A DNA stretch of 32,256 nucleotides from an uncultured Alphaproteobacteria bacterium. GTDB taxonomy: Bacteria > Pseudomonadota > Alphaproteobacteria > Rhodobacterales > Rhodobacteraceae. Shown here one piece after another: positions 1-11,030 of this stretch (positions within the stretch are counted from its first letter, which is position 1; the number at the start of each line of letters is the position of its first letter). Made by a program: the position numbers and the translations under genes. The stretch spans positions 1 to 32,256 of the forward strand of contig CACIAQ010000021.1 in the NCBI GenBank assembly GCA_902584635.1, in the 5' to 3' direction. A model generated the notes under the pieces. It worked only from the letters and a program-made list of their open reading frames with translations. It was not told the DNA's origin and ran no database searches.

Positions 1-113
1 GTGGTGGTTTTTATAGAAACGGAAGCTCCGGGGGTAAAGACCCTACTTACTGCCGATTGGGAAACTCCAGCAAGCTCGGCTACGTCAGCAGATGTTACTT
101 TTGAGTTCTTCAT
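1..113 (-). CDS. LacI-family transcriptional regulator, N-terminal part only (runs off the window)
   Basis: Reading the minus strand from the ATG at 113 gives 37 codons with no stop before the window edge. The peptide contains a typical LacI DNA-binding helix-turn-helix: residues 7-20 include DVAELAGVSQSAVSRV, where the second helix contacts the operator. The ligand-binding domain lies outside the window. Its ATG overlaps the stop of the upstream SDR gene as ATGA (4 bp), so it is the distal gene of the ABC/dehydrogenase operon and probably translationally coupled. A GGAGG lies about 14 bases before the start, which is a rather long spacing. By family habit it would sense the operon's substrate or an intermediate and repress the operon; the LacI-like operator at 7678-7693 is the obvious target. 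The family call is strong; the effector is unknown. Confidence 0.88.
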   Translation of the reverse strand, partial: MKNSKVTSADVAELAGVSQSAVSRVFTPGASVSIKTT

Positions 114-874
114 TCTGCTGTCCAGCCTCCATCAATTACGAGAGAGCTGCCAGTAATTAATGCAGATGCATCAGAAGCTAAGAAAACTACTGCTCCCATA
201 ATATCTTCAACTTTTCCAACTCGATCCAATTTAATTTTACTTTTAATCCAAGAGAGTTTTTTTGGGTCATCAAAGGTGGGTTTAGTCAAATCAGTTAGTA
301 TAAAAGTCGGACATATTGTGTTGACTCTTATGTTAGAGCCACCTAATTCAATGGCAATCGATTTAGTAAATCCTTCTACAGCATGTTTAGAAGCGCTGTA
401 TACGGCACGCTCTTGCCCTCCAACCAGTCCCATTTGTGATGAAATATTAATTAATGAACCACTTTTATTTGCCGACATTAACCTTCTTGCTACCGCCATA
501 GTAAGAAAATAGGCACCTTTCAAATTAACGGTCATTACATCATCAAAATCAGCTTCCTTAGTTTCAACAGAAAGAGAATGCTTAGCAATTCCTGCTGAGT
601 TTACTAAAATATCAAAAGGATCTAAACGGTTTATAGTTTGAAGTATTCTATCAGTCTTTGAAACATCTAACTCGACTAACTCGGTAGAAATTCCCTTATC
701 TTTTAAAGAGGCGCTTAGTTCTTCTAATTTCTGTGACCTTCTTGCAGCAATTGTTATAGAAGCTCCATATTCAGCAAGAGCGACTGCGCATCCTAAACCA
801 ATTCCCGAAGAGGCGCCTGCAATAAGAGCACGTTTGTTTTTTAACGAAAATGAGGGTGTGCTAGGTAAATTCAT
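110..874 (-). CDS. SDR-family NAD(P)-dependent oxidoreductase
   Basis: A 254-residue classical short-chain dehydrogenase. It shows the Rossmann glycine motif at residues 20-26 (GASSGIG), the NSAG variant of NNAG at 92-95, catalytic Ser145/146, and the YxxxK pair Tyr159/Lys163. The C-terminus has the usual IDGGW segment. Such enzymes oxidise or reduce an alcohol/carbonyl on sugars, polyols and related metabolites in the cytoplasm. Its ATG overlaps the stop of the SnoaL-like gene upstream as ATGA, and its own stop overlaps the LacI-type start, so it sits deep inside one polycistron. By context it likely performs one oxidation step on the compound imported by the ABC system. The exact substrate cannot be read from the sequence; glucose- or gluconate-dehydrogenase-like activities and HpsO/HpsP-like activity are all possible. 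Confidence 0.9.
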   Translation of the reverse strand: MNLPSTPSFSLKNKRALIAGASSGIGLGCAVALAEYGASITIAARRSQKLEELSASLKDKGISTELVELDVSKTDRILQTINRLDPFDILVNSAGIAKHSLSVETKEADFDDVMTVNLKGAYFLTMAVARRLMSANKSGSLINISSQMGLVGGQERAVYSASKHAVEGFTKSIAIELGGSNIRVNTICPTFILTDLTKPTFDDPKKLSWIKSKIKLDRVGKVEDIMGAVVFLASDASALITGSSLVIDGGWTAE

Positions 875-1938
875 TGGTAGTTGTCATCTATGTTAATATC
901 GCTATGTGATCTCGATTTATTTAATTCCCTAAGCCTTTGAAAAACATTTATTCCAATCTGATCATACATATCCAAAAGATCAACTAAAACCCAGTTCTCC
1001 CTTATTAAACCATCCTCTCCTAACTTCCAAAAGTCGAGACTACGTAAAAATATTTCTTTATTAACTGGCGCAATTCCCAACCATCCGTCGAAATTTAATT
1101 GCATATGCATATTTGGCCAGCCGGTTTCACATACATATAACCCCTCTGCAATCCAATATGTATCGGCTTTCCATTTCGAATGGAAGTCTGACTTGTCATC
1201 TACCGTTCGATCTGGCATTGCATTTAGAAAAGGTATTTGATGCCAGTTTCTAAACCCTGAAATTCCTCTGCAAGTTCCAATTCCGGCAGGACCATACCAA
1301 TTGAACTGAGGATGCCAATATTTTTCAAGTTTCATTGCTGTTGGGTTTGGGTCAGACGGGTGCTTACACAAATCTGTAAGCATATTTTTAATTTTCAACA
1401 TACTTGTGTTTCCGTTGCCTCTGGCATATAAACCATCACCAGATATTGGACCAGGAGTGCAAATAAACCTCCCCAGCTGTGGTGCCATCGGCCATGAGTT
1501 TGATTGCATCATTAGCTCTGGTAAGTCCCATATTGCTTGAATCTCAACTATCTTTTCTTTATCAAATCTGTAAAACTCATGAAATCGCATGTGAGCAAGT
1601 TGTCCCGTCGGTAAAATATCTAAAAAAGAAGATACAAAGGTTCCAAAATAGTTTCCCATACAGGCAACCCAGTCAGTTCCTTCTGGAGTTTCACCCGCTA
1701 AAATTATGAGATCTCTTCTTTCAAGATTTGGGAATGCTCTCAAAAGAGGCTTATACGTAGTACCGAAATAATTTTCTGTTCCTTTTATCGTTCCAAAAGG
1801 AAAACACATCTTAATTTGACATTGTGGAACTAGTATTTTTTCAAGTTCTCTTTTTACAGACTGACCTGAAAAATTCCTCATAGCAGATAAAAGAGGAGAT
1901 ATATGATCTTTAAGTTTTTCAGATTTACTGACGCTCAT
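871..1938 (-). CDS. Two-domain SnoaL/NTF2-like protein (copy A)
   Basis: A 355-residue protein that appears to be two NTF2/SnoaL-like domains in tandem, roughly residues 20-145 and 185-340. The second carries the WH-x4-WYGPAGIG segment (residues 208-221) common in SnoaL-like polyketide-cyclase-type proteins. A PGPxSxDGL linker motif lies at about 162-170. There is no signal peptide, so it is probably cytoplasmic. It starts by a one-base TAATG overlap with the dehydrogenase stop and ends in ATGA overlap with the SDR, so it is tightly coupled to the catabolic operon. A collinear paralogue sits at 7816-8820. SnoaL-fold proteins include cyclases, isomerases, dehydratases and non-enzymatic binders; I infer an isomerase, lyase or hydration step but the reaction is unknown. 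Confidence 0.75.
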   Translation of the reverse strand: MSVSKSEKLKDHISPLLSAMRNFSGQSVKRELEKILVPQCQIKMCFPFGTIKGTENYFGTTYKPLLRAFPNLERRDLIILAGETPEGTDWVACMGNYFGTFVSSFLDILPTGQLAHMRFHEFYRFDKEKIVEIQAIWDLPELMMQSNSWPMAPQLGRFICTPGPISGDGLYARGNGNTSMLKIKNMLTDLCKHPSDPNPTAMKLEKYWHPQFNWYGPAGIGTCRGISGFRNWHQIPFLNAMPDRTVDDKSDFHSKWKADTYWIAEGLYVCETGWPNMHMQLNFDGWLGIAPVNKEIFLRSLDFWKLGEDGLIRENWVLVDLLDMYDQIGINVFQRLRELNKSRSHSDINIDDNYQ

Positions 1939-3248
1939 TAATCTGCTGAACCCCCATAAGGAATATTTTTCCCTCCAAAGCGCCTAACCCTCAAGTTACA
2001 CTGTTCTGCATGCCCAATAAACCCTTCAAGAACGCATAGACGCGACCCATACTCACCAATTTTTGTAGCAGCTTCATCAGTCAGAATTTTTTGATAGCTA
2101 TGAGTTTTCAAAAATTTACCCACCCATAAGCCCCCAGTATATCTACCTGCTTTTTTTGTAGGAAGGGTATGATTGGTGCCAATCACTTTATCTCCGTTCG
2201 CTACATTCGTTCTTTGACCTAAGAACAAAGCACCGTAGGAATGCATATGCTCTAAATACCAATCGTCTCTATCAGTCATTACTTGTACATGTTCATAAGC
2301 CATTTCGTTTGCAACAGACAACATCTCTTGGTGAGTGTCACATAGCACTATATCACCATAGTCCCTCCAGCTGGCACTAGCAGTATCAGATGTTGGTAAA
2401 ATTTTTAAAAGTCTTTCAATTTCTTTAATGGTTTCGTTTGCTAAGCTCTCTGAATTAGTTATCAAGCAAGCTGGGGAATTATAGCCATGTTCTGCCTGGC
2501 CAAGAAGATCGGTAGCACACATTTCAGCATCAACAGTTTCGTCTGCGATAATCATTGTTTCAGTGGGTCCAGCAAAAAGATCAATTCCCACCCGACCAAA
2601 TAACTGGCGTTTTGCTTCAGCCACAAATGCATTTCCAGGTCCAACCAGCATATCGACTGACTTAATCGTTTCAGTGCCGATAGCCATTGCTGCGACAGCT
2701 TGAATACCACCTAGCACGTATATTTCGTTGGATCCTCCCATTTTCATTGCTGCAACGATTGCCGGATGAGGTTCTCCATTTACAGGCGGCGCGGATGAGA
2801 TAATACGTGGTACGCCTGCAACTGAAGCTGTTAAAACTGACATATGTGCAGAGGCAACCATTGGAAACTTGCCTCCAGGAACATAACACCCTACTGATTG
2901 CACTGGGATATTTTTATGACCTAAAACTACTCCTGGCAAAGTTTCGACCTCTACATCACTTATACTATTCATCTGCTCTTTCGCAAACCTTCTAATCTGA
3001 TTTTGAGCAAATTTGATATCTTCCATGTCACGCGTAGAAACTTTTTGCATTGCGGCGTCAATTTCGGATTCTGTTAGCAAAAAGTTTGGTCGATCAAAGT
3101 TATCAAACTTTTTTGAAAGCTCACGAACAGCTTCATCTCCTTTCACTTCAACTTCTTTCAATGTTTTTTCGACCACAGTCCTTACGTTAAAATCTTCTTC
3201 AAGCTTTTCACCTTCTGATTTACTGTTTTTAATTTTTCTAACCGCCAT
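1938..3248 (-). CDS. Histidinol-dehydrogenase-like zinc dehydrogenase, HpsN (sulfopropanediol 3-dehydrogenase) type
   Basis: A 436-residue HisD-superfamily enzyme. HisD-type residues are retained: Gln251 and His254 (QxxH), Glu319-His320 as the acid/base pair, Asp353, and His413, matching the zinc and catalytic set. HisD proteins oxidise an alcohol through an aldehyde to a carboxylate with two NAD+. In this position, away from his genes and inside a CUT1 ABC operon, it belongs with the catabolic HisD-like group that includes HpsN, which acts on 2,3-dihydroxypropane-1-sulfonate. The start chosen is the ATG at 3248, with an AGAGG ribosome-binding site about 8 bases upstream; an open frame extends 15 codons further but has no better signal. 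There are no sulfonate lyase or sulfolactate genes nearby, so the substrate may be a different polyol or amino alcohol. Family confidence is high, substrate confidence low. Confidence 0.85.
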
Positions 3249-3310
3249 TTTTAAAACCTCTACTTTTAAAATTAATAAAAAAATTTTCTTCAACTATTTC
3301 TTCTCAAAAT

Positions 3311-4192
3311 TTATCCCTTAACTGCTCCAGCAGTCAGTCCACTTACAATCTGCCTTTGAAAAAACATGACCATAAGAAATAAGGGTGCAGTAGTCGAAAC
3401 AACTGCAGCTACTGCAAACATTACATTTCCCTCAGTTTGTGTAGTTCCCATAAAACTGGCTATCTTGGGCACCATGGTTTGGTTGTTTTGTGATAAGAGC
3501 ATAGATGTTATAGCAAAATCATTGTAAGCCAATAAAAAGCTAAATAGTCCTGTTGTAATAACACCAGGCCACATCACAGGTATAATAACGTGCCTAAAAG
3601 CCTGAAACTGCGTGCATCCGTCGACTTTTGCGCTTTCATCTAATTCTTTTGGGATTTTTTGAAAAAAACTATGCAACATCCATAATGTAAAAGGTTGATT
3701 GATGGCGACCAAGACTATAACAGTGGTTGCTAAATGTCCCCACAAATTCCACTCATAAAATGGTAGCAAATAACCAGCTACTAACGTTATCGGAGGCATA
3801 GCTCTAAAAATAAGAGCAGTTATCAACAGCCAAAAGGTATACTTGTAAGATGATCTTGAAAGCGCATACCCGCCTAGAGTCCCGATTGTTAAAGATGTCC
3901 CTACTACAAAGAAGCATACTAGAGTTGTATTTATGACCGCCTGCCAAAAGTTCTCTTGCACCCAAGCTCCATAATAACCATCTCCTGTAAAGGCCCCACC
4001 TTTCTCAGCAATAGTACGTGGTGCAAACAGAGCGTTCATCCAATCTGCTTTTGAAAAGAAATCGGCTTCTATCTTAAAAGATCCCCAAAGAGTCCAAATG
4101 AACGGAAAAGCTGCAATAATTAGCCAAAAAACAATAAATATCGATATGGAAACTTTAAGCGAGATAGGAAGTTTAAGAGAGTGATTTATCAT
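3311..4192 (-). CDS. CUT1-type ABC transporter permease (MalG-like)
   Basis: A 293-residue inner-membrane permease with about six hydrophobic segments and a cytoplasmic EAA loop around DESAKVDGCTQFQAFRHVIIP, the site that docks on the ATPase. Size and layout match MalG/UgpE-type subunits of sugar and polyol importers. It starts four bases inside the end of the partner permease (ATGA overlap), so the two are translationally coupled and probably form the heterodimeric pore. A 62-base gap separates it from the HisD-like gene, which has its own ribosome-binding site. Family assignment is firm; transported substrate is not determined by this subunit's sequence. Confidence 0.93.
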   Translation of the reverse strand: MINHSLKLPISLKVSISIFIVFWLIIAAFPFIWTLWGSFKIEADFFSKADWMNALFAPRTIAEKGGAFTGDGYYGAWVQENFWQAVINTTLVCFFVVGTSLTIGTLGGYALSRSSYKYTFWLLITALIFRAMPPITLVAGYLLPFYEWNLWGHLATTVIVLVAINQPFTLWMLHSFFQKIPKELDESAKVDGCTQFQAFRHVIIPVMWPGVITTGLFSFLLAYNDFAITSMLLSQNNQTMVPKIASFMGTTQTEGNVMFAVAAVVSTTAPLFLMVMFFQRQIVSGLTAGAVKG

Positions 4193-5220
4193 TTTGCACT
4201 CTTTTCGTTGAAATCACGCCAAGTTCTAATCAAAACAGGAAATAATAGAATAGAGACACCTATTATTGTTAAAACTGAAGATGTTGCTGCAGACGACAGC
4301 AATCTAGTTTCTCCTCCTAAGTCATTGAAAATAAACCATGAAAGAGATTGTGCATGTGCTTCGGCACTAAAGCCAACTATAGGTTCAAAGACTCTAAAAT
4401 TATCCATTAATTGCATCAATGCTACAAAAGTAATAAGCGGCATTAGATGAGGTATCACTACATACCAAACTTGTTGTAACCTTGACGCACCATCAATTTT
4501 AGCGCTTTCTATAGTGTCCATCGGTAAGGTTTGTAATCCTGCATAAAAGACAACGAATGAAAAAGGAGCAGCATGCCAAACGCCATAAACTATCAACATA
4601 ACCCAAGTTAGACCGGTAGATGCCTTTAGAGATAAATCAGGGTCTTCAAATACATATTGCAGTGCTTCACCAATTATTCCTCTACTGTCTATCATCCAAA
4701 ATAAGACAAGAGACCCTATCAAAGGAGAGACAATCATTGGAAGAAGGGAGAAAAAGATAGTTAAACCCTTTAAATTCTGATGAAGGGAATTCACAGCCAG
4801 TGCAATAATAAAACCAAAAACGAGCATTAACGGTGTCACTGTGAATGTGAATGTCAAGGTAAAAGCCATAGCTCTATAAAAAGGTAGGTTCCCAATATTA
4901 TTTTTAAATTCTGCGAAATTATTGGACTCTACCCATATTTCTTTTATTTCGTTTACCGCAAGATGGCCTCTGTCCTTGTAAATTTCTAAACCAACAAACT
5001 TTCCTAATGGTTCGGATTTCCTTAAATCTCTTGTTGCATCTTGATCAATTGTCGTTTCTTGCTTGCAACCAAAAGGATCACAGTTTTCTGTAACGATAAT
5101 TACAGCATCATGAGGGGTAAATAATGACTGAATGACAATTGAAAAAATTGGCAAAGCAATAAAAAGTAGCATTGCAGATGCTGTAGGCAAAAAGAACCAA
5201 AAAAAAGTTTTATGTTTCAT
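4189..5220 (-). CDS. CUT1-type ABC transporter permease (MalF-like) with a periplasmic insert
   Basis: A 343-residue inner-membrane permease. The start is placed at the ATG at 5220; a longer open frame reaches back over the hairpin and into the binding-protein gene and is not credible. TM1 lies at about residues 7-30. It is followed by a roughly 80-residue periplasmic segment containing two cysteines in CDPFGC, then the usual five-helix core with an EAA loop around IESAKIDGASRLQQVWYVVIP. The periplasmic insert is reminiscent of the MalF P2 loop and may contact the binding protein; the Cys pair could form a disulfide. It pairs with the permease that overlaps its end. A hairpin and T-run lie just before the gene and may lower its expression relative to the binding protein. 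Confidence 0.92.
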   Translation of the reverse strand: MKHKTFFWFFLPTASAMLLFIALPIFSIVIQSLFTPHDAVIIVTENCDPFGCKQETTIDQDATRDLRKSEPLGKFVGLEIYKDRGHLAVNEIKEIWVESNNFAEFKNNIGNLPFYRAMAFTLTFTFTVTPLMLVFGFIIALAVNSLHQNLKGLTIFFSLLPMIVSPLIGSLVLFWMIDSRGIIGEALQYVFEDPDLSLKASTGLTWVMLIVYGVWHAAPFSFVVFYAGLQTLPMDTIESAKIDGASRLQQVWYVVIPHLMPLITFVALMQLMDNFRVFEPIVGFSAEAHAQSLSWFIFNDLGGETRLLSSAATSSVLTIIGVSILLFPVLIRTWRDFNEKSAK

Positions 5221-5238
5221 TAAATAAACTCTGGAACC

Positions 5239-5273
5239 AAAAAATATCAGGGAAGCATTAAGCTTCCCTGATA
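5239..5273 (-). terminator. Hairpin plus T-run between binding-protein and permease genes (leaky terminator or 3'-end stabiliser)
   Basis: On the minus strand a perfect 12-bp stem (TATCAGGGAAGC with its complement, 5262-5273 and 5245-5256) closes a 5-base loop and is followed at once by six T residues (5244-5239). It begins 12 bases after the stop of the binding-protein gene and ends about 20 bases before the permease ATG. This has the form of an intrinsic terminator. Because the downstream genes have no other clear promoter, partial termination or protection of the upstream mRNA end is the likely role, a familiar way to make more binding protein than permease. Confidence 0.8.
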
Positions 5274-5284
5274 CAAGATCGCAT

Positions 5285-6526
5285 TTAGTTAAGGAAACCC
5301 TTCTCTTTTGCGGCTGCAGTGTAAGCAGCTTCAACGTCTGCAAGAGTAGTGGCTGCATCTTCTTTACCTTGCATAAAGTCTACAATTTCACTACCAAGAG
5401 CTGAGTGTAGAAGTCCTTGATAAGGTAGCATAGGATATGGAATTGCATTCATTCTTGCTGCAGCAGCAACGCCTACATTTGCTGGACCAGGCTTAAAGCC
5501 TTCGATCAGCCAAACAGCTAATGGCATCATTTTATCGTCTAATCTTTTAGGATTAATACCATTCATCATTGCTATAAACGTCGCTTCAGCTTCTGCATCT
5601 GAGATGTTTTTAGCTACAGTCCAACCGTCCCACCAAAGTGTTGTTGCAGGAGTTGATCCTCCTCCAACAGTCATAGGATCTCCTAGTGTAGTTGTTTTTA
5701 CTACTGTTGGAGTTGACTGCTCAGGATCCATTAAAGGACCCATTCTTGATCCCCACATATTCATCATAGCTACATTACCAGCTTTCCACTCAGCTGAGGT
5801 CGCGTTTGAATCATGAGTCAAGAAATCTGGATTCATGTATGCGGAAAGAGCTTTTAACATCTCAAGTGTAGCTACTCCCTTTGCATTATTAATTGATACT
5901 TCAGCTGAACCCGGCTTAAAAAATTCACCTCCATGACCAATATACATATTTGTGAATTCCTGAGCTAAATTCCAGCCAGCTTTATAGGCACCTCCTAAAG
6001 GATAATCCATTAAACCTTTATCTTTTATGATTTTTGCTCCGGAAAGCATTTCTTCATAGGTTTTTGGAGCCGATATGCCAGCTTTTTCTAAAATATCTGA
6101 ACGATAAACCAAATGTTGTGCATTTGCCATAAAAGCAACGGCCATAACTTTACCATTAATTGTGATAAGCTGGTTTTTCTTAAGGCCTTTTCCGTGTTTT
6201 GAAACGAGATCATCTAATGGTCTAATCACATCATTATTCATTAACGCAACTATTGATGAATTGGCTATAATAGCGGAAGTATACTCCGCTGGATTACCAC
6301 TCATACCAGCAACATTTATTTTTTGATGATCAGCTGTCAAGTTAGCTTTAACTTCTGATCCCTTACATACCTTTGCACCATCGGCAACTGCGTGGATTGC
6401 TGGAAACTCGTTACCTACAATGCTAACCCTTGCTGATATTTTACATCCGTGACCATCAGCATAAATAGGGGCAGCAAAAACGGCTATAGCACTTGCTACA
6501 GCCAACCGCATAATATTTTTAATCAT
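5285..6526 (-). CDS. Extracellular solute-binding protein of a CUT1-type ABC importer
   Basis: A 413-residue periplasmic binding protein of solute-binding family 1. Residues 1-23 form a Sec signal peptide (positively charged start, hydrophobic core, cleavage likely after IYA). The mature part has the family's alternating fold with a WDGWTVAKN segment near residue 300. A GGAG ribosome-binding site lies about 8 bases before the ATG. It is the second gene of the operon after the ATPase and precedes both permeases, with a hairpin directly after its stop. It would capture the substrate in the periplasm and deliver it to the permease pair. Sugars, sugar alcohols and glycerol-3-phosphate derivatives are typical ligands for the family; the actual ligand is unknown. 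Confidence 0.93.
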   Translation of the reverse strand: MIKNIMRLAVASAIAVFAAPIYADGHGCKISARVSIVGNEFPAIHAVADGAKVCKGSEVKANLTADHQKINVAGMSGNPAEYTSAIIANSSIVALMNNDVIRPLDDLVSKHGKGLKKNQLITINGKVMAVAFMANAQHLVYRSDILEKAGISAPKTYEEMLSGAKIIKDKGLMDYPLGGAYKAGWNLAQEFTNMYIGHGGEFFKPGSAEVSINNAKGVATLEMLKALSAYMNPDFLTHDSNATSAEWKAGNVAMMNMWGSRMGPLMDPEQSTPTVVKTTTLGDPMTVGGGSTPATTLWWDGWTVAKNISDAEAEATFIAMMNGINPKRLDDKMMPLAVWLIEGFKPGPANVGVAAAARMNAIPYPMLPYQGLLHSALGSEIVDFMQGKEDAATTLADVEAAYTAAAKEKGFLN

Positions 6527-6581
6527 AATAAAACTCCATGATAGTTTTGTGCTTCATATTAAAAGCACTAGGTTTGTCTCG

Positions 6582-6595
6582 ATTTCTCGAGAAAT
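6582..6595. repeat. Perfect 14-bp palindrome upstream of the binding-protein gene
   Basis: ATTTCTCGAGAAAT reads the same on both strands and is centred on CG. It lies in the 80-base gap between the ATPase stop (6607) and the binding-protein start (6526), about 56 bases before that ATG. It could be a second regulator site for an internal promoter, but its half-site does not match the operator at 7678-7693, so the role is open. Confidence 0.4.
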
Positions 6596-6606
6596 TATGG
6601 GAAAAA

Positions 6607-7656
6607 TTATCTCCCAAGTCGATCCCCCGTTTTATGATCAAACAGGTGACATTTCTTTGACGGAATATGAATTGAAACATAATCCTCAATATTCGCTCTG
6701 TAATCTTTTTCCGTTTTTATGCTTACCAATGATTGCCCAATTTTAACAGTAACCATAGTCGCATCACCTAAGATTTCTAATGTGTAAATTGGCGCATTTA
6801 TTTGACCACCACATTTCACAACGCTAGCGTCTTCGGCTCTGAAACCTAATGTGACTTTTGAGTTTTTAACATTCAATCCACTTACCGAGGTCAAATCAGC
6901 AGTGAATTTTTTATTAATAACCTCTCCGTCAATTAAATTCATGGCAGGAGAGCCTATAAAGCTTGCTACAAAAGCGTTAGCGGGGTTATCATATATTTCC
7001 GTAGGACTACCTACCTGCTGAATAATCCCCTCTTTCATAACAACCACTCTGTCTGCAAGTGTCATAGCCTCAACTTGATCATGCGTCACATAGACAGTTG
7101 TGACCTCAAGTTCATGGCTAAGGTTTTTTATTTGAGCGCGTGTAGATACTCTTAACTTGGCATCGAGATTTGATAAAGGTTCATCCATTAAAAATACGTT
7201 TGGCTCTCTTACAATAGCGCGTGCTAAAGCTACCCTCTGCCTCTGACCCCCTGATAATTCAGCAGGCTTACGATGAAGAAAATTGTCTAATTCCACCATT
7301 TTTACGGCACGCATAACTTTTTCATTATGCGTAGATTTATCTATACCCCTGACCTTAAGAGGAAACCTTATGTTTTCGTACACATTCATGTTTGGGTAAA
7401 GCGCATAACTCTGAAACACCATCGCGACATCACGATCCTTTGGCTCAAGGTCATTTATTTTTTTGCCATCTACTAAGATATCACCGTTGGTTGCGTCTTC
7501 CAAGCCAGCAATCATTCTCATAGTTGTTGTTTTTCCACAGCCCGATGGCCCTAATAGTACTAGAAATTCTTTATCAGCTATTATTAAATTAAAATCATCT
7601 ACCGCCGTGAAATTACCCCAACGTTTGGTAAGTTTTTTAAGTTGAATTTCAGCCAT
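6607..7656 (-). CDS. ABC transporter ATPase, MalK/UgpC type
   Basis: A 349-residue ATPase with the full motif set: Walker A GPSGCGKTT near residues 37-45, Q-loop VFQSYALYP, signature LSGGQRQRVALARA, Walker B VFLMDEP with the adjacent D-loop SNLD, and the switch histidine in VYVTHDQ. The C-terminal 110 residues form the OB-type regulatory region of CUT1 ATPases. It energises uptake through the two permeases downstream. It is the first gene of the operon. A GGAA lies 6 bases before the ATG, and the LacI-like operator lies 22 bases upstream of the gene. CUT1 ATPases are sometimes shared between importers, so this one could serve others. Confidence 0.95.
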   Translation of the reverse strand: MAEIQLKKLTKRWGNFTAVDDFNLIIADKEFLVLLGPSGCGKTTTMRMIAGLEDATNGDILVDGKKINDLEPKDRDVAMVFQSYALYPNMNVYENIRFPLKVRGIDKSTHNEKVMRAVKMVELDNFLHRKPAELSGGQRQRVALARAIVREPNVFLMDEPLSNLDAKLRVSTRAQIKNLSHELEVTTVYVTHDQVEAMTLADRVVVMKEGIIQQVGSPTEIYDNPANAFVASFIGSPAMNLIDGEVINKKFTADLTSVSGLNVKNSKVTLGFRAEDASVVKCGGQINAPIYTLEILGDATMVTVKIGQSLVSIKTEKDYRANIEDYVSIHIPSKKCHLFDHKTGDRLGR

Positions 7657-7677
7657 TTAAGTTCCAAAATAAACTTA

Positions 7678-7693
7678 TTGCATACGTTTGCAA
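7678..7693. promoter_or_regulatory. Probable LacI-family operator
   Basis: TTGCATACGTTTGCAA is symmetric at 14 of 16 positions around a central CG, the usual layout of LacI-family operators. It lies 22 bases before the ATPase ATG in the divergent region, and a minus-strand TATAAT lies just upstream at 7716-7711. That puts the site at about +10 to +26 of the transcript, suited to repression. The operon ends with a LacI-type gene, which is the likely binder. Whether it also affects the divergent plus-strand gene is unknown. Confidence 0.72.
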
Positions 7694-7710
7694 GTAGATA
7701 TTAAAATGTT

Positions 7711-7716
7711 ATTATA
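7711..7716 (-). promoter_or_regulatory. Candidate -10 box of the ABC operon promoter
   Basis: The minus strand reads TATAAT exactly, 55 bases before the ATPase start and just upstream of the operator. No good -35 hexamer is found at 16-18 bases; only weak matches such as ATACTT occur. A start site near 7704 is inferred. Confidence 0.45.
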
Positions 7717-7815
7717 TAAATTCAGATTCTAGCAAGTATTTTTGTAATTTGCTTTAACCTGACATAATAAGGACCATAAGAAGCCCATAACAATGATTAA
7801 TTAAAGAAGAAGTAG

Positions 7816-8820
7816 GTGAGTTTTCTAACTGAAAAAAACTTAGTGCTTGAGTTTTATAAGGCATTACAAACGTCCGACATAGAAGATACAAAAAAAGTTT
7901 TTTTGAAATATTGTTCAAAAGACCTTATCTGGCGTGGTTTTCATCCTTTTAATAAAATAAATGGTTCCGGTTCTGTATGTGAGCTTTTCTGGAACCCTTT
8001 GAAATCCAGTTTGTCTAAACTTACAAGAAGAATGGATATTTTTTTTGCGGGAAATAATACTATTTCGGGTAACGAAGGTATTTGGGTAGCGTCAATGGGC
8101 CACTTGATGGGTATATTTGATAAACCATGGCTAAAAATATCACCAAATAAAAAACTGACTTTTCTGCGATATGCAGAATTCAACAAAATTGTTTCAAATA
8201 AAATCGAGGAAACAGCAATGTTTTTTGATATTCCCCACTTTATGTCTCAAGCAGGGGTAAACCCTTTCCATTATCAAACAGGGGCTAACCTTGTTCAACC
8301 CGGTCCGTCATCACATGATGGTTTATTATTTGACGATCAAGATGCGGCAGAAACTATTAAAACTAAAAAAGCTATTGAAGATATGATCGATGATCTAAAG
8401 GTTTGGAAATCAACTGATAGGGTTTCATTAATAAGGGAGCTTAAAAAAAGCTGGCACCAAGATATGTTATGGTGGGGTCCATCAGGCATAGGAGCAACTT
8501 ATACAATAGAAAGATATGCCGAGCAACACTGCAGACCATTCAGAGAAAGTTTTAAGGAACGCCAGTTTAATGGGCATATTTGTAGAATAACAGAAGGATT
8601 TTTTGGAGGATTTTTTGGTTGGCCAAATCTTTCGTTGGTCCATTCAGGAGGATTTATGGGGATGCCATCCACAGGGAAAAGAGGCGATATGCGAGTAATT
8701 GACATTTACAGGAGAGAAGGAAAGAAGCTTAAGGAAAACTGGGTATTCATAGATCTCCTTCATTTTTGGAAGATGCAGGATATCGACATATTGGACAGGA
8801 CAACGAAAATATCACCTTGA
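7816..8820 (+). CDS. Two-domain SnoaL/NTF2-like protein (copy B)
   Basis: A 334-residue protein starting at GTG, with an AAGAAG stretch a few bases before it; the next in-frame ATG lies about 70 codons inside, so GTG is preferred. It is collinear with copy A at 871-1938. Both have WVA(C/S)MG at residue 90, a PGPxSxDGL linker (163-170 here), a WH-x5-WWGPSGIG stretch (213-226) in the second domain, and an ENWV(L/F)(V/I)DLL segment near the end. It is divergent from the ABC operon across the operator region and is followed by the RraA-like gene after 31 bases. The two copies may form a heteromer or act on successive intermediates. No function can be assigned from the sequence beyond the fold family. 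Confidence 0.75.
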   Translation: MSFLTEKNLVLEFYKALQTSDIEDTKKVFLKYCSKDLIWRGFHPFNKINGSGSVCELFWNPLKSSLSKLTRRMDIFFAGNNTISGNEGIWVASMGHLMGIFDKPWLKISPNKKLTFLRYAEFNKIVSNKIEETAMFFDIPHFMSQAGVNPFHYQTGANLVQPGPSSHDGLLFDDQDAAETIKTKKAIEDMIDDLKVWKSTDRVSLIRELKKSWHQDMLWWGPSGIGATYTIERYAEQHCRPFRESFKERQFNGHICRITEGFFGGFFGWPNLSLVHSGGFMGMPSTGKRGDMRVIDIYRREGKKLKENWVFIDLLHFWKMQDIDILDRTTKISP

Positions 8821-8851
8821 TGGCAGCAGAAAATTGAGTAAAGAATAGATA

Positions 8852-9547
8852 ATGAATATTGATCAACTTATTAAAACAACTTCTAAATACGATACGCCAA
8901 CAATGTGTAATGCTATGGATGTTATATTAGGCACCAGATCCGCTATAGGATTTACTAAAAGCTCGATGGTTACAGCACAAAATTCTACCCAGCCCATTGC
9001 TGGTTTTGCAAAAACGGCTAAAATACGGGCCTCTTCACCCCCACTCATGGCTCAAAAAGAAATTAACAATATCCGTATGGAATATTACGAGTACATCGTC
9101 AAAAATGAAAAAAACCCTGTAGTCGTTATAGAAGATACGGACTTTCCCAACTGTGTTGGAGCTTTTTGGGGGGAGCTTAATGTTGCTGTACATAAGGGAT
9201 TGAAAATTAAAGGAACTGTTACTAATGGACTGCTAAGAGATTTAGGAATGCTGGATTCTGGGTATCAAGTTATTGCGGGAAGCATAGGGCCTAGTCACGC
9301 CTTTGTACACATTACTGAGTTAGACACACCTGTAAATATATTGGGATTAGAAATAAAGCCTGGAGACTTTATACATGCTGACCTGCATGGTGCTATGACA
9401 GTACCGAAAAAGTATTTGGATGCACTACCTCATGCGTTGGACCTTGTTGTAAAGAAAGAGGTACCAATTTTGGAGGCGGCTAGACAAAAAGATTTTAATA
9501 TTGAGAAATTAAAAAAGGCATTCCAGGCATCATGGGATATCAAATAA
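8852..9547 (+). CDS. RraA-family protein (HMG aldolase / oxaloacetate decarboxylase-like)
   Basis: A 231-residue protein of the RraA / 4-hydroxy-4-methyl-2-oxoglutarate aldolase family. The key segment GTVTNGLLRDLG (residues 121-132) supplies the conserved Arg129-Asp130 pair. WGELNVA at about 106-112 is the conserved GE loop that helps bind metal and substrate. The C-terminal part keeps the PVNxxGxxxxPGD pattern. Members cleave or decarboxylate 2-oxo acids with a divalent metal; a subset (RraA proper) inhibits RNase E instead. Placed between a SnoaL protein and a HAD-like protein, and beside an importer and dehydrogenases, a catabolic aldolase or decarboxylase giving pyruvate is the more likely role. 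The start codon is ATG, with a weak GAGTAAAGA before it. Confidence 0.82.
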   Translation: MNIDQLIKTTSKYDTPTMCNAMDVILGTRSAIGFTKSSMVTAQNSTQPIAGFAKTAKIRASSPPLMAQKEINNIRMEYYEYIVKNEKNPVVVIEDTDFPNCVGAFWGELNVAVHKGLKIKGTVTNGLLRDLGMLDSGYQVIAGSIGPSHAFVHITELDTPVNILGLEIKPGDFIHADLHGAMTVPKKYLDALPHALDLVVKKEVPILEAARQKDFNIEKLKKAFQASWDIK

Positions 9548-9584
9548 AAATGTTAAGGGCTACAAAATTTAGTGGAGGTATGGA

Positions 9585-10238
9585 GTGAATAAAAACTTAA
9601 AAGCAGTCTTATTTGGGTCTATAGGAACAGTTGCTGAAACATCTGAGATACAAAGACGGAGTTATAATTTAGCTTTTAAAAGATTAAACATTGACTGTTA
9701 CTGGAACGTTGCAAACTATTGCGAGATGCTTAAAGTCCCCGGCGGCAAAGATAGAATAAGAAATTTCACAATACCAGACATAGCAGAAGACTTGGTTGAT
9801 AAAATTCACAATCTAAAAGAAGAGATCTATGCAGAACTTATTGAGCAAGAAGATATATCACGGATTGAGTTTGTTGAAGTATTTCACCATAGCAAAGCAA
9901 GTGATTTAAAAGTTGGTTTAATAACAACTACTTCGCAGACAAATATAAAGTCGTTATCTAAAGCACTTGAAGATAAAGTAAACTTTAATGACTTTGATAT
10001 AATCACTACATCTAAAGACTGCTTACGTCCAAAACCAAATCCCGAAATTTATCGAAACGCGCTCAAAAAAATTGGGGTTAGTCCATGCGAGGCCATTGCG
10101 ATAGAAGATACTCAAGTAAATCTCGGGGCATCAATAGCGGCAGACATCAACAGTATCCTATATCCTGGAGAATATTCAAACTACACGAAGGAAGTAAAGC
10201 CGAGCTTTAATCTAATGGAAGAAATATTTAAAATTTAG
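9585..10238 (+). CDS. HAD-superfamily protein lacking the catalytic aspartates
   Basis: A 217-residue protein of the CbbY/beta-phosphoglucomutase-like HAD type. It starts at GTG with a clear GGAGGT upstream; the nearby ATG is out of frame. Motif I should read DxDGT but here is GSIGT: Gly11 replaces the nucleophile and Ile13 the acid/base Asp. The rest is present: a hhhTTTS motif II near residues 114-117, Lys150 in RPKPNPEIY for motif III, and Glu174-Asp175 for motif IV. With no nucleophile, ordinary phosphatase or mutase activity is not expected. I recall FGSIGT-type proteins from Rhodobacterales, so this looks like a stable family and not decay. It may bind a phosphorylated ligand or regulate a partner. 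It follows the RraA-like gene by 37 bases, probably in one operon. Confidence 0.78.
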   Translation: MNKNLKAVLFGSIGTVAETSEIQRRSYNLAFKRLNIDCYWNVANYCEMLKVPGGKDRIRNFTIPDIAEDLVDKIHNLKEEIYAELIEQEDISRIEFVEVFHHSKASDLKVGLITTTSQTNIKSLSKALEDKVNFNDFDIITTSKDCLRPKPNPEIYRNALKKIGVSPCEAIAIEDTQVNLGASIAADINSILYPGEYSNYTKEVKPSFNLMEEIFKI

Positions 10239-10241
10239 AAT

Positions 10242-11030
10242 TTATTTTTTCCAACTAGGGTCAAGCTTTTCCAGCAATCTCCAATAAGCTGGCCACTCAG
10301 GATGCCTCACTTCGGCTCCTCCTTGAGCAGCTCCACCTTCAAACTGTTTTCTAGTATGAACCATAACTTTTTTTGGAATTTTTATAATCTTACCACCAGA
10401 ACTCATTGCTCTTAGTTGTATTTCGGCATTCCTAATAAACACTTGGTGCCTAATAAACGCCCAAATAGCGCTTGGTCCAGCAGTAATTAAGCCATGATTT
10501 CTTAAAACTAATGTATGATTTGACTTACCAAGCGATTTAATAAGTCTTTTTTTTTCCGTGGCGTCCAGAACTATACCCTCAAAATCATGATAGCCTACCC
10601 TTTCATATAATTGGCAAGCCTCTTGAAACATAGGTATAACCTTTTCTTTTAGCGCAGCAATTGTTTGACTCATTGGTTCATGGGTATGCATAACACAATG
10701 AAGGTCTTTATTTCTTGCTTTATGTATAGCAGAATGAATATTATATCCAGCCTGATTTATGGGCCAATCATTAGGGTCTAGCTTATTTCCATCTAAATCA
10801 ATCTTAATTAAATTTGATGCACTAATTTCGTCGTATCTAAGGCCAAAGGGATTAATAAGAAAAGTATCAGTATCTGGAATTCTTAAGGTTATATGGTTAT
10901 ACACAACGCTTGTCCAACCATAGTAGTCAGTTAATCTATAGATAGCAGCTAAGTCAACTCTAGCTTTCCACTCATTTACTGACATTCCCTTTGGACATTT
11001 TGGGTATGAATTTTTAAATGCAATTTTCAC
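10242..11030 (-). CDS. Class II aldolase/adducin-family protein
   Basis: A 262-residue protein of the class II aldolase/adducin fold. Zinc-ligand histidines are visible: His115 and His117 (MHTHEP) and His179 (RNHG). The residue four before His99, where fuculose-phosphate-type aldolases carry the catalytic Glu, is Gly95 here, as in several adducin-like branches, so a classical aldol cleavage is uncertain. Epimerase, decarboxylase or lyase activity on a sugar-acid derivative is possible. The start is GTG at 11030; an ATG at 10985 (MSVNEW) would give 247 residues and fits where many relatives begin. The gene meets the HAD-like gene tail to tail with 3 bases between stops. It shares the catabolic neighbourhood but reads from its own promoter in the gap before the MATE gene. 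Confidence 0.8.
   Translation of the reverse strand: MKIAFKNSYPKCPKGMSVNEWKARVDLAAIYRLTDYYGWTSVVYNHITLRIPDTDTFLINPFGLRYDEISASNLIKIDLDGNKLDPNDWPINQAGYNIHSAIHKARNKDLHCVMHTHEPMSQTIAALKEKVIPMFQEACQLYERVGYHDFEGIVLDATEKKRLIKSLGKSNHTLVLRNHGLITAGPSAIWAFIRHQVFIRNAEIQLRAMSSGGKIIKIPKKVMVHTRKQFEGGAAQGGAEVRHPEWPAYWRLLEKLDPSWKK

Follow-up and report, generated by a model that had tools for sequence, protein, structure and literature searches.

A probable LacI-controlled catabolic regulon with several SnoaL-like proteins and a separate HisD subfamily in Rhodobacteraceae and other Alphaproteobacteria

Introduction

Which compound would be degraded by a bacterium that places a CUT1-type importer, tandem SnoaL-like proteins, a HisD-superfamily dehydrogenase and an RraA-like protein on the two sides of one divergent promoter? 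The question is raised by contig CACIAQ010000021.1 (C21) from an uncultured Rhodobacteraceae bacterium (GCA_902584635.1; 2.0 Mb in 92 contigs, 77.5% complete), the whole of which (32,256 nucleotides) is referred to as the window. An initial annotation had proposed that positions 1 to 11,030 contain a catabolic system built around two SnoaL-like proteins and an HpsN-like dehydrogenase. We found that the gene arrangement was far above chance and that the set recurs across many genera, and it very probably forms one catabolic regulon, of ordinary logic but with several unusual enzymes. The complete system has three to five SnoaL proteins, and includes a cupin, a core-MetE-like protein (MetE2) and a hydrolase whose genes lie outside the window. 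As to function, the LacI-controlled catabolism of an O-methylated, hydroxymethyl-bearing and probably carbocyclic metabolite of phytoplankton is our tentative proposal, with a likelihood somewhat short of even. The protein families are known; among the matches listed from the open-licence literature (titles and the starts of abstracts, preprints excluded), we could not find a description of the gene set, the operator or the HisD subfamily. This supports the earlier suggestion of an undescribed catabolic system that combines a CUT1-type importer with a HisD-superfamily enzyme and an RraA-type protein.

Results

Gene content and recurrence

The left end of the 32-kb contig falls inside a LacI gene, and two related loci (L058 and L059, from isolates AG-904-M20 and AG-426-E23, whose names point to probable single-cell genomes) were used for comparison. 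The features of the window are as follows.

1..113, minus strand: LacI-family regulator, N-terminal fragment of the first 37 codons (translation; full-length LacI at the same place in L058 and L059)
110..874, minus strand: short-chain dehydrogenase/reductase (SDR) (Pfam; 96-98% identity to the L058 and L059 copies)
871..1938, minus strand: SnoaL1, tandem SnoaL/NTF2-like protein (PF07366)
1938..3293, probable start 3248, minus strand: HisD-superfamily dehydrogenase of a separate subfamily (PF00815, 445 bits)
3311..4192, minus strand: ATP-binding cassette (ABC) permease 2 (PF00528)
4189..5220, minus strand: ABC permease 1 (PF00528; the open reading frame (ORF) opens at 5358, and a start at about 5220 was taken from the L058 protein of 343 amino acids)
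5285..6526, minus strand: solute-binding protein of the CUT1-type importer (PF01547)
6607..7656, minus strand: MalK/UgpC-type ABC ATPase (PF00005, 119.4 bits; MalK OB fold 26.9, cutoff 27)
7678..7693, no strand: LacI-type operator TTGCATACGTTTGCAA within the divergent promoter (distance to the start of the ATPase gene 22 bp, to that of the SnoaL2 gene 123 bp)
7816..8820, plus strand: SnoaL2, tandem SnoaL-like protein (PF07366)
8852..9547, plus strand: RraA-like protein with the class II pyruvate aldolase fold (PF03737)
9585..10238, plus strand: CbbY-like haloacid dehalogenase (HAD) family protein without the DxD nucleophile motif (Pfam, alignment)
10242..11030, minus strand: class II aldolase-family gene, probably outside the system (seen beside the cluster at only 2 of the 80 loci)

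All genes named in the initial annotation were present, and Pfam supported each of them except the 37-codon LacI fragment, for which the full-length protein of L058 was scanned. The distant solved relatives of the binding protein are named sugar-binding or sulfoquinovosyl-binding. The window gene was the sole HisD-family match in its own assembly (77.5% complete), where no ordinary histidinol dehydrogenase was reported.

L058 and L059 matched the window genes at 93-100% protein identity and ran past the contig end, where they carried LacI, SnoaL3, the cupin, MetE2 and an alpha/beta hydrolase (Pfam for L058); no relatives of the MetE-like protein and the cupin were found in the incomplete assembly of the window itself. 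The initial observation therefore holds, with the window covering part of the system.

When named contigs were scanned with SnoaL1, at least 561 loci were confirmed, and the best 80 by likeness to SnoaL1 were kept. Genes were counted in the 42 full-length loci, i.e. those of the 80 with at least 20.9 kb in hand, using chosen identity thresholds and a crude ORF layout in stretches that stop 10 kb from SnoaL1, so that presences are lower bounds: MetE2 (37 loci), LacI (36), SnoaL3 (35), binding protein (35), cupin (34), HisD-like enzyme (31), SDR (31), hydrolase (25), SnoaL2 (23), RraA (17) and HAD (15). In three loci, SnoaL1 was present and none of HisD, MetE2 and cupin was seen. Across the order, SnoaL relatives were found at an E-value of 0.001 in 92 of 196 genomes, a count to which some genomes probably contribute a SnoaL paralogue as their best match, and 75 of the 92 matched at 1e-60 or better; in a phylum-wide sample, 17 of 398 genomes matched at 1e-60, 15 of which (the own genome counted) belonged to the same family. 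The relatives therefore co-occur widely, contrary to the first refuting outcome set in the initial annotation, namely that they never do so elsewhere. On annotated plasmids of Ruegeria and Octadecabacter, the cluster comprised genes labelled as ester cyclases, hisD, a cupin, RraA and a cobalamin-independent methionine synthase II, and it also reached records named Pelagibacteraceae (one full-length locus, L117, is so titled) and many uncultured Alphaproteobacteria. Because SnoaL relatives occurred in approximately half of the sampled order and the cluster in these latter records, the substrate is probably common in seawater.

On the other hand, the class II aldolase-like gene, which the initial annotation had counted as a member, accompanied the cluster in only 2 of the 80 loci, both of the window's own lineage, and was rejected. 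Partial versions were also observed. Contig C3 of the own assembly (L053, 6790-12126) encoded another importer, made up of a binding protein and two permeases, with SnoaL1- and SnoaL3-like genes directly behind it; no HisD-like gene was seen within the 20 kb viewed. A Vibrio pelagius plasmid (28 kb viewed) carried an importer and four SnoaL genes, with none of HisD, cupin and MetE-like seen.

Operator and regulon

A palindrome near TTGCATACGTATGCAA (up to two mismatches) was found between the divergent arms in 27 of 33 regions, versus 0 of 6,600 shuffled regions; the 33 were merged from 39 divergent regions, the consensus came from the same regions, and only single-base shuffles were used. The six regions without it included L034, L036, L045 and L074. 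The window site, TTGCATACGTTTGCAA, was the sole exact one in its own assembly, and allowing up to two mismatches added one more, as against one for the reversed control. Across the order sample of 196 genomes, 72 sites in 54 genomes matched the pattern TTGCAWWCGWWTGCAA (reversed pattern, 0), and a SnoaL match was present in 53 of these 54 (odds ratio 140, Fisher p = 1.8e-21), in a test that includes genomes that supplied the pattern. The class-wide test (385 genomes, exact pattern) was more independent: there were five sites and none for the reversed control, four of them at versions of the cluster in other families and the fifth before another ABC operon.

The operator also marked parts of the system that lay apart. 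A search of 20 genomes with up to one mismatch gave 31 sites in 18 genomes (reversed control, 1); two of the sites lacked the CG centre and were unrelated. In L172, the operator stood in trans before the HisD-like gene and SDR on a separate contig, and in L189, it was found at the HisD-like and LacI genes. L173 contained an operator-like site (one mismatch, with one site also for the reversed control in the same genome) between an amidohydrolase and RraA, and no RraA was seen in the main cluster of that genome (L110). In L060, L062, L063 and L064, the operator began 29-75 bp before the ORF of the HAD gene. Eight of the operator-site regions from the order-wide test were fetched, six of them picked as lying away from the listed SnoaL matches: three of the six (G044, G050 and G060) were at cluster-type genes, and three (G009, G108 and G167) at genes to which no link was made. 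In L184 (9526-11544) and L185 (9699-11948), the operator preceded a methyl-accepting chemotaxis protein gene adjoining the cluster (Pfam for L184 only), hinting at chemotaxis toward the substrate.

Since the conserved operator recurs between the arms and at cluster genes elsewhere, the local LacI protein, which would bind the palindrome, very probably controls the two divergent arms together. The second refuting outcome set in the initial annotation, a lack of joint response of the divergent genes and the ABC operon, is accordingly unlikely. As judged at the sequence level, the importer, SnoaL proteins, HisD-like enzyme, SDR, cupin, MetE2, hydrolase and, in many cases, RraA or HpaI were tied together by neighbourhood and by this operator. 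That several independent functions are merely gathered under one regulator, with no single pathway, is therefore improbable: the importer and SnoaL genes alone in L053 and Vibrio (L034) and the three full-length loci with SnoaL1 but without HisD, MetE-like and cupin favor this view, whereas the same operator joins the parts even when they are apart. The operator and gene list make the substrate question directly testable.

HisD-like enzyme

The nearest solved structures to the HisD-like protein were dehydrogenases for sulfopropanediol (R-2,3-dihydroxypropane-1-sulfonate; R-DHPS), at 368.6 bits versus 277.1 for the best HisD. In the accessible part of PMC11382572, HpsN is described with a G-R-Y-A/S-H motif, His126 of which touches the sulfonate, and HisD with G-S-A-P-L. 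In our alignment of 69 rows, which includes the window, the Ruegeria proteins and duplicate loci (as well as an L133 row (43%) that is probably not a cluster gene), the corresponding motif was GKFPM in 64 rows, GKYPL in three, GKYPM in one and GRYPL in one; the HpsN motif ending in His126 was found in 0 of 69 rows, with no His at the last place, and G-S-A-P-L also in 0 of 69. The zinc ligands and catalytic Glu-His (E334, H335, D368, Q266, H269 and H428 in the window numbering) were kept in all 69 rows. Because both motifs are missing and the catalytic and zinc residues are kept, this protein should be an alcohol-to-acid dehydrogenase with a substrate other than that of HpsN or HisD. DHPS catabolism (hpsRNOUPsuyAB, HpsN) likewise places a HisD-superfamily enzyme with the same zinc and catalytic residues in a catabolic cluster, but differs in the His126 motif, and importer, SnoaL, cupin and MetE-like genes are outside the gene set named in the accessible part of PMC11382572.

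SnoaL, MetE2, cupin, aldolase and HAD proteins

SnoaL1 and SnoaL2 (27% identity to each other) scored 62.5 and 36.2 bits, respectively, against the PF07366 gathering score of 28.4. The AlphaFold2 model of SnoaL1 (predicted local distance difference test (pLDDT) of 82) matched polyketide cyclases (IdmH, AclR and SnoaL2) and tandem epoxide hydrolases (Lsd19 and MonBI), with which the cluster proteins share the SnoaL-type fold and tandem architecture, but from which they differ in the catabolic context. No NCBIfam family was found for the window SnoaL proteins, and the small SnoaL of Ruegeria scored 45.7 against the cutoff of 200 for the methyl ester cyclase model.

MetE2 resembled the core-MetE and MetE-II methionine synthases in having a single catalytic domain of approximately 375 amino acids with a His-Cys-Glu-Cys zinc site (H242, C244, E276 and C342), which was conserved at 95% or more in 52 sequences and matched the corresponding residues in solved MetE-type proteins, 3rpd among them; it differed from them in its link to a catabolic regulon. 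Its best score with the NCBIfam methionine synthase equivalogs was 100.1 bits, below the cutoff of 406. Core-MetE homologues of roseobacters, not necessarily MetE2, are mentioned with an unsettled role in the accessible parts of two papers: their function in aerobic marine bacteria is called questionable (PMC12478193), and in P. inhibens one is proposed to serve as an additional methionine synthase (PMC12366255). Outside the cluster, a relative of MetE2 (46%) in Novosphingobium pentaromativorans adjoined an aminomethyltransferase-family gene, MetF (methylenetetrahydrofolate reductase), purU and LigAB, a setting that we read as methoxy-aromatic demethylation. As an identity for MetE2, epoxyalkane:coenzyme M transferase was rejected, the Xanthobacter enzyme (24.5% identity) being no closer than methionine synthases (50 of 268 records, spread over the ranking).

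The cupin model (pLDDT of 91) was a bicupin nearest MncA, quercetin dioxygenases (quercetinase) and oxalate decarboxylases, with template modelling (TM) scores of about 0.45-0.55, matches that fit a dioxygenase, a decarboxylase and an isomerase alike; the HxHxTxE motif was present.

In RraA, the Arg-Asp pair R128-D129, which we take to be the active-site pair of 4-carboxy-4-hydroxy-2-oxoadipate (CHA) aldolase (LigK/PcmE), was conserved at 95% or more in 28 sequences. Four loci (L066, L070, L182 and L183; Pfam for L070 and L182) contained an HpaI-family aldolase, with no RraA seen. That a single type of cluster is found with pyruvate aldolases of two unrelated folds argues that the last step is probably the cleavage of a 4-hydroxy-2-oxo acid. 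The lower pathway of protocatechuate 4,5-cleavage, which uses LigI, LigJ and LigK, likewise has Amidohydrolase_2-family and RraA-fold proteins, and CHA is a possible shared intermediate; the differences are that the cluster RraA is far below the LigK models and that LigAB was not among the recurring cluster members.

The CbbY-like HAD gene was seen in 26 of the 80 related loci. Its nearest solved relative was CbbY (structures 4uar-4uau; E-value of 9.1e-29), presumably a phosphatase, from which it differs by FGSIGT in place of DxD in motif I: both aspartates were lost in 28 of 28 aligned rows (the window protein counted twice). Because the nucleophile motif is so replaced, normal HAD phosphatase activity is unlikely for this protein.

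Discussion

Proposed pathway and substrate

We propose the following order of steps for the O-methylated substrate, which is presumably a small polar compound. It would be imported through the ABC importer, and the acid-base chemistry of the SnoaL proteins would strip or isomerise it. The HisD-like enzyme with NAD would then oxidise a primary alcohol adjacent to a hydroxyl, giving the carboxylate, and the O-methyl group would pass to the MetE-like protein, probably on to homocysteine. Opening of the ring (or chain) would follow through the cupin and hydrolase, and RraA or HpaI would finally split a 4-hydroxy-2-oxo acid, releasing pyruvate and one further acid.

Our leading single candidate for the substrate is a mycosporine-like amino acid (MAA) or gadusol, although this identity, taken by itself, is on balance unlikely. 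MAAs and gadusols have both the O-methyl group and a primary alcohol adjacent to a hydroxyl. By formula, 4-deoxygadusol with CH2OH converted to COOH, minus the methyl group and plus O2, equals 4-carboxy-4-hydroxy-2-oxoadipate, i.e. pyruvate plus oxaloacetate. Shinorine carries serine and glycine, and within the cluster of L070 (6847-8840), a gene for L-serine dehydratase (619.5 bits; cutoff, 345.1) starts 19 bp from a variant of the operator and is followed by a glycine-transporter-domain gene. A single-case hint comes from Vibrio harveyi, for which a review, in the part accessible, relays the suggestion that it hydrolyses shinorine and porphyra-334 to mycosporine-glycine. The cluster could then be, with similarly low likelihood, a mineralisation pathway for MAAs or gadusols, which serve marine algae and corals as sunscreens; it would be present in roseobacters, Pelagibacteraceae and other marine bacteria, and in it amino acids are freed by SnoaL paralogues and the methyl group is salvaged by the MetE-like protein; if true, it would be a route returning algal sunscreens to the carbon and nitrogen cycles. 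No genetic pathway of MAA breakdown was found among the matches listed from the open-licence literature, which is weak evidence of its absence.

Several observations weigh against this proposal, some of them against its chemistry. The MAA idea is a hand match of gene families to a structure, and the mass balance is a weak test of it. The serine dehydratase comes from one locus, and no amino-acid gene was found at the Rhodobacterales operator sites inspected, a part of all sites. We know of no precedent for O-demethylation by a MetE-like protein alone; MetE-like relatives in Rhodococcus and in two haloarchaea (Halobaculum and Haloterrigena) sit in settings that do not suggest demethylation, and the Paracoccus plasmid copy of the cluster lists no MetE-like (methionine synthase) gene. 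Dioxygenase activity of the cupin is doubtful because Arg replaces the usual metal-binding His of the second motif. The RraA of Ruegeria scored 29.7 bits against the cutoff of 304.5 for TIGR02798 (CHA aldolase), a model that was not among the matches of the window RraA. Within the stretches ending 10 kb from SnoaL1, 23 of the 42 full-length loci showed no RraA and no HpaI gene, and 11 showed no HisD-like gene. The cluster genes are also carried by soil and freshwater genera. Finally, a glucokinase-like ORF (read from its start) borders the cluster in L058 (16664-17665), L059 (16665-17672) and L065, which fits a sugar.

Other substrates

The strongest rival is an O-methylated sugar, a sugar acid, a cyclitol (e.g. 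methyl-inositol) or another polyol, with the SnoaL proteins as dehydratases or isomerases and the aldolase acting on a 2-keto-3-deoxy acid; we regard it as possible, if rather unlikely. It accords with the CUT1-type importer, the distant relatives of which are sugar-binding, with the glucokinase-like edge ORF in three loci, and with three nearest models, all below their cutoffs: ribose repressor for LacI, 2-dehydro-3-deoxyglucarate aldolase for the HpaI-type gene, and fuconolactonase for the amidohydrolase. Apart from that edge ORF, however, no kinase, sugar isomerase or sugar-acid dehydratase was present among the recurring members labelled or grouped, and, to our knowledge, sugar pathways do not usually contain a cupin, a PcaD-like hydrolase or several SnoaL proteins.

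A methoxylated aromatic or other lignin-type ring compound is improbable. The PcaD-like hydrolase, the RraA and HpaI aldolases, and the MetE-like relative that has LigAB and an aminomethyltransferase-family gene as neighbours would suit such a substrate, but no ring-hydroxylating or extradiol dioxygenase turned up among the recurring members, HisD-type oxidation and a CUT1-type importer are a poor fit, and the titles of most named loci point to a marine source.

A C3 sulfonate such as DHPS, with the HisD-like enzyme (termed HpsN-like in the initial annotation) functioning as HpsN, is very improbable: the closest solved relatives given above favor it, but the motif test, in which the HpsN motif with His126 was missing in 69 of 69 rows, led us to reject this identity.

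Neighbouring genes

Eight cluster loci (L048, L051, L056, L076, L078, L082, L105 and L149) contained a GMC-family oxidoreductase gene of the choline dehydrogenase-like kind, whose product may be an additional alcohol oxidase. An SSS symporter gene was found near the SnoaL genes in place of the ABC importer in L068, L073, L086, L101 and L142, the first of which additionally has a TonB receptor. In 18-19 loci of one lineage (L093, L096, L109 and L116 among them), the cluster was followed by EamA exporter-, Pta-, Tpa-like aminotransferase- and alanine dehydrogenase-like genes, a block that we read as taurine-type, with alanine dehydrogenase alone tested at the family level; as a single shared synteny, it was set aside as a part of the system. 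In L058, L059 and L065, the glucokinase-like ORF and further ABC- or glycosidase-like ORFs came after the hydrolase gene, and may be a separate sugar cluster.

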